Positions 4,107 to 40,465 of a DNA stretch of 64,000 nt are shown one piece after another (within the stretch, counting starts at the first letter, position 1; every line of letters begins with the position of its first letter). The stretch is taken from contig NZ_JNLL01000001.1 in the NCBI RefSeq assembly GCF_000703085.1, positions 1,116,001 through 1,180,000 on the forward strand, in the 5' to 3' direction. The notes beneath the pieces were generated by a model, which saw only the letters and a program-made list of their open reading frames with translations, was not told where the DNA came from and made no database searches. Position numbers and translations under genes: made by a program. Source of the DNA: Persephonella sp. KM09-Lau-8. GTDB lineage: Bacteria; Aquificota; Aquificia; Aquificales; Hydrogenothermaceae.

Positions 4107-4338
4107 GTTTTATCTGAACTATATGGGATAGAAAGGTTATCTGTTCAATGCTCCGGGGGAGTGATGTTTTACGGTTTTATCTGAACTATATGGGATAGAA
4201 AGATTCTTGCAATATTAAGAATAAGTGATTATTTAGGGTTGCAGTTTTATCTGAACTATATGGGATAGAAAGACTGTTGATAAACTACCAACAACAGCAG
4301 ACCATAAAGGTTTTATCTGAACTATATGGGATAGAAAG
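4107..4338 (+). CRISPR. Short CRISPR array: four identical 29-bp repeats, three spacers
   Basis: Identical 29-nt repeats at 4107-4135, 4174-4202, 4244-4272 and 4310-4338, starting GTTTTATCTGAAC and ending GGGATAGAAAG. Spacers are 38, 41 and 37 nt. The 3' GAAAG resembles the ATTGAAAS handle of type I repeats, suggesting the + orientation with the leader on the left. A fifth repeat with one change (ACCATA for ACTATA) is at 5076-5104. No cas genes lie in this window, so adaptation and processing must be supplied from elsewhere. I see no match of the spacers to the rest of the window, although I could not search exhaustively. Confidence 0.92.
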
Positions 4339-39416: not shown

Positions 39417-39430
<14 letters not shown>

Positions 39431-40091
39431 AGTAGTGTACAACTTTCCCTTTAGAAGGTTTATACATAATATCAAGTAAAAACCAGCCTGTTATAAATCC
39501 ACCTATATGGGCATACCATGCAACTCCACCTACGTTTGGAGGGACTATCATAGCGAACAAAACCTGAATAAAAAACCAGTATCCTATAAAAAACCAGGCA
39601 GGCAGAACAAAGATAAAAAATATAAAAGGAGGAATTACAGTTAAAACCTTTGCTTCAGGATAAAGCTTAATATATGCAGCAAGGACTCCACTTATAGCAC
39701 CTGAAGCTCCAACCATAGGTATAAAATAGCTACCTGCAGATAAACTTATTATTGATTGGGTTAAAGCTGCTCCCACACCAGACAGGAGATAAAAAATTAT
39801 AAATTTGAACTTTCCAAGTGCATCCTCCACATTATTACCAAATATCCATAAGAAAAGCATATTTCCAAACAAATGTGCAAAACTACCGTGTAAAAACATT
39901 GAAGTGAAGATCTTATCAAATCTAAAATGAAGCAGATCTATAGGTAATAACCCATACTGATGAATAAATAACTCAAACTTTTGAGGAGGTAAAGTGGCCT
40001 CATAAAGATAAATCACTGTATTTAGAATAATAAGCAAAACCGTGATTATAGGAAAAGTTCTTGTTGGAATATTATCCTTTATAGGAATCAT
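39417..40091 (-). CDS. Rhomboid-family intramembrane serine protease
   Basis: 224 aa, about six membrane helices. Catalytic Ser130 in GASGAISG and His195 in AHIGGFITG; His73 and Asn77 in HLFGNM form the oxyanion site. So it should be active. Substrate unknown. Its leader contains the C-rich transcript and terminator at 40132-40190, and GGGGA serves as ribosome binding site. Converges on the lipoprotein gene with a 14-nt overlap. Confidence 0.93.
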
Positions 40092-40131: not shown

Positions 40132-40190
40132 ATAAAAAAGGAGGCTCCATTGCAGAGCCTCAGAATTTTGGGGGAGGGAGGGGGGAGGTG
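40132..40190 (-). ncRNA. ~60-nt C-rich RNA with anti-Shine-Dalgarno 5' end (sRNA or leader attenuator)
   Basis: Predicted transcript on the minus strand from the promoter at 40197-40225 to a terminator. The 5' end reads CACCUCC, as in the 3' tail of 16S rRNA, followed by CCCCUCCCUCCCCC, then AAAA, then a 7-bp hairpin GAGGCTC/GAGCCTC (40155-40161 with 40141-40147) and a T-rich run (40139-40128). The C-rich part is unpaired. It may act in trans on GGAGG sites, such as those of the cco operon upstream, or as an attenuator for the rhomboid gene 40 nt further on. Confidence 0.55.
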
Positions 40191-40196
40191 TTTATT

Positions 40197-40225
40197 AATA
40201 TAAATCTTCTATATTAATTTGTCAA
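40197..40225 (-). promoter_or_regulatory. Consensus sigma-70 promoter for the C-rich RNA
   Basis: On the minus strand TTGACA (40220-40225), a 17-bp spacer, TATATT (40197-40202). The best match to the consensus seen in the window. Predicted start at 40189-40191. Confidence 0.75.
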
Positions 40226-40465
40226 CTTTTTTAATAAATTTCTAATTTTTATAGCAGTATAGGCTTTTTAAAAGTAAGTAAATAAAAACATACCCAATAA
40301 ACAGAAATAAGATTAAGGTAAGAGAATATTAGGTAATAAAAAAATTAAAAGACGTTAATATAACTGATAGTTTCAAAAATGTTCAGAATATAAGACTTGC
40401 AATAAAAAAAGGGGCTTTAAAAGCCCCTTTTAAAAAGTTGAAATCTGTTTTAAAAGATAGATTAA
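40226..40465. other. Gap between the C-rich RNA promoter and the oxidase operon
   Basis: 240 bases, strongly AT-rich, no open frame of note. It contains only the bidirectional terminator at 40404-40431 near its right end. Confidence 0.6.
40404..40431. terminator. Bidirectional terminator after the cbb3 oxidase operon
   Basis: GGGGCTT (40411-40417) and AAGCCCC (40421-40427) form a 7-bp stem flanked by a run of As on the left and Ts on the right, so it can terminate transcripts from either strand. On the minus strand it closes the oxidase operon. Confidence 0.85.

Follow-up and report, generated by a model that had tools for sequence, protein, structure and literature searches.

In the 64,000-nucleotide stretch of Persephonella sp. 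KM09-Lau-8 DNA analysed here (the window), a short C-rich unit on the minus strand is almost certainly a real, conserved RNA gene, and by its sequence it belongs to a phylum-wide Aquificota RNA family with a C-rich core, a covarying GC hairpin and a T-rich tail. We take it for a real gene rather than a product of chance because it recurs in the genus and in the phylum, because its hairpin covaries and because its core is nearly invariant. Two Aquifex aeolicus members of the family correspond to RNAs for which experimental detection has been published. The short stand-alone C-rich RNA that a preliminary description of this DNA had proposed is supported by conservation, covariation, the A. aeolicus RNAs and complementary Shine-Dalgarno (SD) sequences that are conserved in a candidate target operon. 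The explanation taken as a whole, namely a phylum-wide stand-alone small RNA that would block SD sites, with members answering to different sensors and serving respiratory choice, is one that we favour with modest confidence.

Anatomy of the transcript unit

The unit has the parts that the preliminary description gave it (Table 1): the near-perfect promoter TTGACA-17-TATATT stands at 40225-40197 on the minus strand, the near-pure C/U tract at 40188-40170, and the hairpin with its following T run at 40161-40134, and the terminator of the cbb3-side operon was rightly placed about 180 bp upstream of the promoter (40431-40407). The promoter scores 11/12 and ranks first among 17 promoter-like sites in a 4.5 kb region, where 15.9 were expected; as this count is at chance level, the promoter alone is no proof, and it is conservation that carries the proof. 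Since promoter matches are not rare in such AT-rich DNA, the anatomy taken alone is likewise weak evidence. The 5' end of the predicted small RNA (RNA A) is placed from the promoter, 7 nt after the -10 hexamer. In the minimum-energy fold of RNA A the C/U tract is unpaired, and the C-rich seed is predicted to be unpaired in RNA A and in the RNA of the second copy (RNA B) alike. A coding ORF was rejected as the identity of 40134-40190, since no ORF of at least 80 aa, the length limit of the ORF listing, covers that span.

Table 1. Coordinates of the transcript unit, its neighbours and the second copy (window positions unless a contig is given)
Feature	Position	Strand	Remark
Transcript unit, type A	40225-40134	minus	promoter, C/U tract, hairpin, T run
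-35 hexamer TTGACA	40220-40225	minus	TTGAC[AT] read in 12/12 Persephonella type A loci
-10 hexamer TATATT	40197-40202	minus	17-nt spacer from -35
Predicted small RNA type A (RNA A), about 57 nt	40134-40190	minus	5' end predicted, 3' end at the T run
Single-stranded C/U tract (seed) CCTCCCCCCTCCCTCCCCC	40170-40188	minus	CA directly before the tract
Terminator hairpin GAGGCTCTGCAATGGAGCCTC, GCAAU loop	40141-40161	minus	
Intrinsic terminator tail, C and six T (CTTTTTT)	40134-40140	minus	
Rhomboid protease gene, downstream neighbour	39420-40091	minus	outside the RNA; Pfam PF01694, E 1.8e-33
Terminator of cbb3-side operon, upstream	40407-40431	minus	
Second copy, type B (own genome)	G000:C1:1583027-1583091		after topA

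Conservation and the RNA family

A DNA search of 61 genomes (our own included) gave matches in 31 at E<=0.01, the weakest of them being short AT-rich chance matches; they cover 12 of the 14 Persephonella genomes and several other genera of the family. When the loci were read side by side, promoter, tract and hairpin were found to be kept while the flanks vary. The tract CCTCCCCCCTCCCTCCCCC is identical at 10 of 12 genus loci, with one C more at L012 and a shorter form at L013. Among 24 aligned copies, hand-chosen and trimmed, 99.5% of the hairpin cells are paired, six of the eight pairs are altered on both sides, and in three of five measures no shuffle reaches the observed value.

The covariance model R1 scores our own type A copy, which is itself included in the model, at 87.2 bits (E 3.9e-20). 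At E<=0.1 it matches 39 of 41 genomes of the family, 35 of them at E<=1e-4 by hand count; across Aquificota, matches are found in 107 of 136 genomes at the loose threshold of E<=0.1 and, again by hand count, in 77 at E<=1e-4 (35 from f1, 35 from f2 and 7 from f5, our family labels). Forty places, mostly R1 matches, were read individually, and six were set aside as chance or too weak: L073 and L074 have the hairpin only, L072 and L104 a weak tract, L106 is poly-C and L107 is weak. A GTDB scan for the core followed by a T run named at least 115 stretches; among those listed, R1 reaches E<1e-4 in 27 of 28 with an Aquificota title, L186 being the one missed, and in 0 of 87 others. The Aquificota titles so listed belong to Hydrogenothermaceae, Aquificaceae and Desulfurobacteriaceae.

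Across three families the core CCCCCTCCCTCC is nearly invariant, and the element kept throughout the phylum is CCCCCUCCCUCC, in which the positions of both U are fixed, rather than the 16S-like CACCUCC. At the loci already read, which are no random sample, the pattern CCCCC[T]CCCTCC[CT]C occurs in 11/12 type A loci of the genus, 6/9 type A loci elsewhere in the family, 10/12 loci of f2, 7/7 of f5 and 12/12 of type B, so that it is incomplete in some groups.

We rejected a known Rfam family as the identity of the unit: at the gathering score, an Rfam 15 scan of the whole window returned only four CRISPR-DR43 matches, lying elsewhere, and the stretches L287, L252, L037, L253 and L254 gave 0 matches. 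The four CRISPR-DR43 direct repeats occupy window positions 4107-4338 on the minus strand.

Other C-rich units came to light during the reading. Several genomes of the family hold a third unit rich in C/U, which has a hairpin and a T run and in which CTCATGG is followed by CCTCC motifs (L071, 1499-1568, minus; L096, 1405-1465, minus; L099, 1408-1468, plus). Desulfurobacteriaceae stretches L089 and L186 hold a second, different C-rich unit with a weak model score. In two Persephonella genomes (L352, 1108-1159, minus, and L326) a C-rich stretch with a C-rich terminator loop is flanked by genes that we presume from their translations to be nrdD-like and nrdG-like. Near position 1500 of L118 lies GGAGGGAGGGGGATACCCCCTTTTTT, which looks like a terminator and could pair with the core through its complementary 5' half.

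Members in Aquifex aeolicus

Genome G065, which we take to be Aquifex aeolicus VF5, carries its tmRNA and SRP RNA at the published A. aeolicus positions. For the two RNAs discussed below, Aae-65/n68 and n75, Willkomm 2005 is reportedly a further paper. The R1 match at 989759-989823 (plus) falls within n68/Aae-65 (989704-989840), for which 476/756 cDNA reads are given (Lechner 2014, PMC4227106); n68 starts 8 nt past a TATAAT that is preceded by TTGACA. The complement of the core located a second place, 1169032-1169054, within n75 (1168974-1169071), which the phylum-wide R1 search with its stricter filters had missed; with filters off, the minus strand of n75 matches at E 1.7e-8 and shows the same plan as the family. 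Northern signals were obtained for n75 on both strands, and the authors call its polarity unclear (PMC4227106); the C-rich strand is the likely one. As far as the accessible part of that paper goes, n68 and n75 are neither linked to each other nor described as C-rich regulators (PMC4227106).

By model, tract, hairpin and tail both detected RNAs are homologues of RNA A, although by their published boundaries they are about 98-137 nt long with a leader before the tract, whereas RNA A has about 57 nt and bears the tract at its 5' end. The n68 leader, moreover, contains GGAGG/GGGAG, with which the tract of the same RNA could pair. It is for A. aeolicus only that a discrete transcript of the family has been published. 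The family thereby unites two orphan A. aeolicus RNAs and supplies a model for annotation. An Hfq of known structure has been described for A. aeolicus (PMC5379935).

The second copy and its possible sensors

The second copy in the own genome, type B, follows a gene that we take from its translation to be topA. Upstream of type B, 11 of 17 rows show a perfect (8/8) TGATN4ATCA box, and a -10-like hexamer (TATATT, TAAATT or TATAAT) lies at 30 to 35 from the box centre in 14 of these 17 rows, which include close relatives and for which the start site is a predicted one; L036 and L068 give no fit to a CRP/FNR-type box by the same score. Class II CRP/FNR promoters have a characteristic spacing between box and -10, and the CRP/FNR-like box of type B sits, with its -10, at the class II position (-41.5). 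Because of this spacing, the CRP/FNR-like box was preferred to a Fur box, which had also been considered for type B. Three HTH_Crp_2 proteins of the own genome lie above the cut-off, a domain that also matches in all 14 control genomes, and the best of the three is CRP/FNR-like without a named equivalog. A CRP/FNR regulator of this genome lies at G000:C1:990941. No operator is visible at the type A promoter, and no Fur box was seen at either the A or the B promoter of our own genome. The Desulfurobacteriaceae copies L084-L087, L109, L110, L137, L161 and L174 carry TGAGAACTATTATTA, TGATAACTATTATTA or similar over the -10, which by eye resembles a Fur/PerR box.

Probable pairing with Shine-Dalgarno sites

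Most likely the RNA acts in trans, its C tract pairing with G-rich SD sites, and, as far as sequence can tell, pairing of this kind is quite probably its main mode of action. The tract would pair with the G-rich SDs (GGGGAGGGAG and similar) of selected mRNAs, block ribosome entry and so switch the target genes off.

Within the own genome, GGGAGG 2-10 nt before ATG occurs 77 times against 42 for the reversed pattern, an approximately 2-fold excess that ordinary SD use also explains. Six genomes showed no genome-wide excess of core complements over the reversed pattern, and the GGGRGGGG listing consists mostly of coding and rRNA sites. Among GGGGAGG sites of six genomes one gene recurs across genera, that of an oxidase subunit II, a 196-aa membrane cupredoxin-like protein with a weak CoxB match, followed by a COX1-family gene (subunit I); 12 of 41 family genomes carry it. 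Counting G-U pairs, its leader offers a pairing run with the core of at least 7 in 12/12 and at least 8 in 9/12 carriers, and the subunit I leader one of at least 7 in 10/12, reaching 11 in G015; the background among window genes is at least 7 in 5/61 and at least 8 in 0/61. In the own genome the subunit II duplex is computed at -20.2 and -18.6 with RNAs A and B, respectively, vs -14.9 for the 16S tail. This heme-copper oxidase operon (subunits II and I, distinct from cbb3) appears to be the best target candidate; as it was found from a pattern list by seeking such sites, it is a lead only, the background control being post hoc, and judged by these sites it has about an even chance of being a true target.

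Other candidates fared less uniformly. A lipase-like gene has the SD GGGGAGGGAG or GGAGGGAGG in five of eight carriers, no site in the other three, and is absent from our own genome. A DUF481 gene seemed conserved in two genera, failed across the family and was dropped. In two sister species, genes for HU, an OmpA-like protein and a PG_binding lipoprotein have GGGGAGG SDs. The preliminary description had singled out the cbb3 operon; the duplex of RNA A with the leader of its COX1 gene has -13.9 kcal/mol vs -13.2 for the 16S tail, too close for a special target, and RNA B reaches -22.1 there through a gapped helix. What remains of the proposed pairing with GGAGG sites is pairing with G-rich SDs; a special role of cbb3 is not supported, and general titration is unlikely.

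A further partner may lie before a copD-like gene, where a G-rich transcript candidate with the promoter TTGACT-17-TATTCT occupies about 1188990-1189110 (plus) of G000:C1, equal to about 1490-1610 of L254. Its TTGAGGGAGGGGGGTA is identical in G006 amid differing flanks, so that 12 nt perfectly complementary to the C tract are kept in two species, and the duplex of RNA A with TTGAGGGAGGGGGGTA is computed at -29.5 kcal/mol. Stretches of G009 and G015 yielded neither the candidate nor the copD-like gene. From its sequence it may be a sponge, a target leader or a separate RNA.

Alternative explanations

The C tract might instead be a protein site, the RNA titrating or guiding a binder of C-rich RNA (Rho, a cold-shock or a KH protein), with pairing secondary. 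Rho classically binds poly(C), and the near-pure C tract, unpaired in the fold, is kept across families; yet both U of CCCCCUCCCUCC are fixed in three families, beyond the needs of a loose C-binder, and one operon shows conserved complementary SDs, so that we regard this reading as unlikely.

The unit might also act in cis, as a 5' leader of the rhomboid gene or as its attenuator, with conditional read-through; in favour of this, the gene starts 43 nt past the T run and lies downstream of type A at 16 of 21 loci. We give it little chance, since 4 of the 21 type A loci, in two genera, have no rhomboid gene there (at L014, a further locus, a contig end cuts the view), type B follows topA, and the A. 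aeolicus members are located elsewhere.

Very improbable, in our judgement, is a general anti-SD mimic, an RNA copying the 16S 3' tail and lowering translation globally. The likeness on which it builds is real: as our own 16S 3' end reads GGATCACCTCCTTT, CACCTCC is a true 7-nt match to it, just as the preliminary description had claimed. As a key element, however, CACCUCC does not hold: it is confined to Persephonella and lost outside the genus (TCCCTCC, CCCCC), while the phylum retains CCCCCUCCCUCC, and the kept C5-U-C3-U-CC core is without counterpart in 16S. The conserved part being the C core and not CACCUCC, a general anti-SD decoy is unlikely.

A DNA element, in which a G-quadruplex of the G-rich template strand (plus strand GGGGGAGGGAGGGGGGAGG) controls transcription or recombination, has next to no probability, given the covarying hairpin and promoter-to-terminator anatomy, which indicate an RNA product, and the RNAs detected in A. 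aeolicus; the own copy has four G2 tracts but no four G3 tracts, which leaves of the quadruplex in the preliminary description only a two-quartet or bulged candidate.

A possible shared-seed regulon

Returning to pairing with SD sites, the main candidate target would be the heme-copper oxidase operon with its CoxB-like subunit II and COX1-family subunit I; the members would respond to different sensors (a CRP/FNR-family activator in the case of type B), and the regulon would help to choose between respiratory enzymes. More tentatively, and with some doubt, we suggest a phylum-wide regulon in which several small RNAs use one C seed of 12-14 nt while their sensors differ (a CRP/FNR-like one for type B, possibly a Fur/PerR-like box in Desulfurobacteriaceae), the seed being matched by the oxidase SDs and by the possible sponge before the copD-like gene. 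If true, few antisense seeds known in bacteria would be as deeply conserved as this one, and it would work in thermophiles. An unpaired C seed facing G-rich SDs offers a plausible route for antisense control at high temperature. How small RNAs regulate genes in deep-branching thermophiles has received little study, and the family names testable targets; our literature searches yielded a paper on ncRNAs of Aquificales and none on C-rich regulators there.

Comparison with known small RNAs

FnrS of E. coli is a small RNA under an FNR-family activator, and it is Hfq-dependent and has a seed that is not C-rich. An FNR-family activator is thus common to FnrS and, as a proposal, to type B.

The parallel with Firmicutes UCCC-type RNAs that the preliminary description had drawn is apt for the mechanism, whereas kinship finds no support, the host being one of the Aquificota and Rfam giving no match; the likeness of RoxS/RsaE and IsrR to RNA A would accordingly be one of analogous mechanism. 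In RoxS/RsaE of Bacillus and Staphylococcus a C-rich region pairs with mRNA, under redox control (Rex) and in the service of NAD balance (PMC5419742), and for RoxS an RNA sponge is known (PMC8216469). These RNAs belong to another phylum, and RNA A has one long tract at its 5' end. In staphylococci, single-stranded C-rich regions of the Fur-controlled IsrR lower translation of nitrate-respiration enzymes (PMC9410917). IsrR shares unpaired C-rich regions with RNA A, but has three of them, and differs in its Fur control from our own A and B units with their lack of a visible Fur box. LhrC of Listeria has five copies under one two-component system, whose redundant CU-rich sites impede translation (PMC4132741). 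Like LhrC, the Aquificota family has several copies per genome; the LhrC copies, however, obey a single two-component system, whereas the Aquificota paralogues stand under different promoters.
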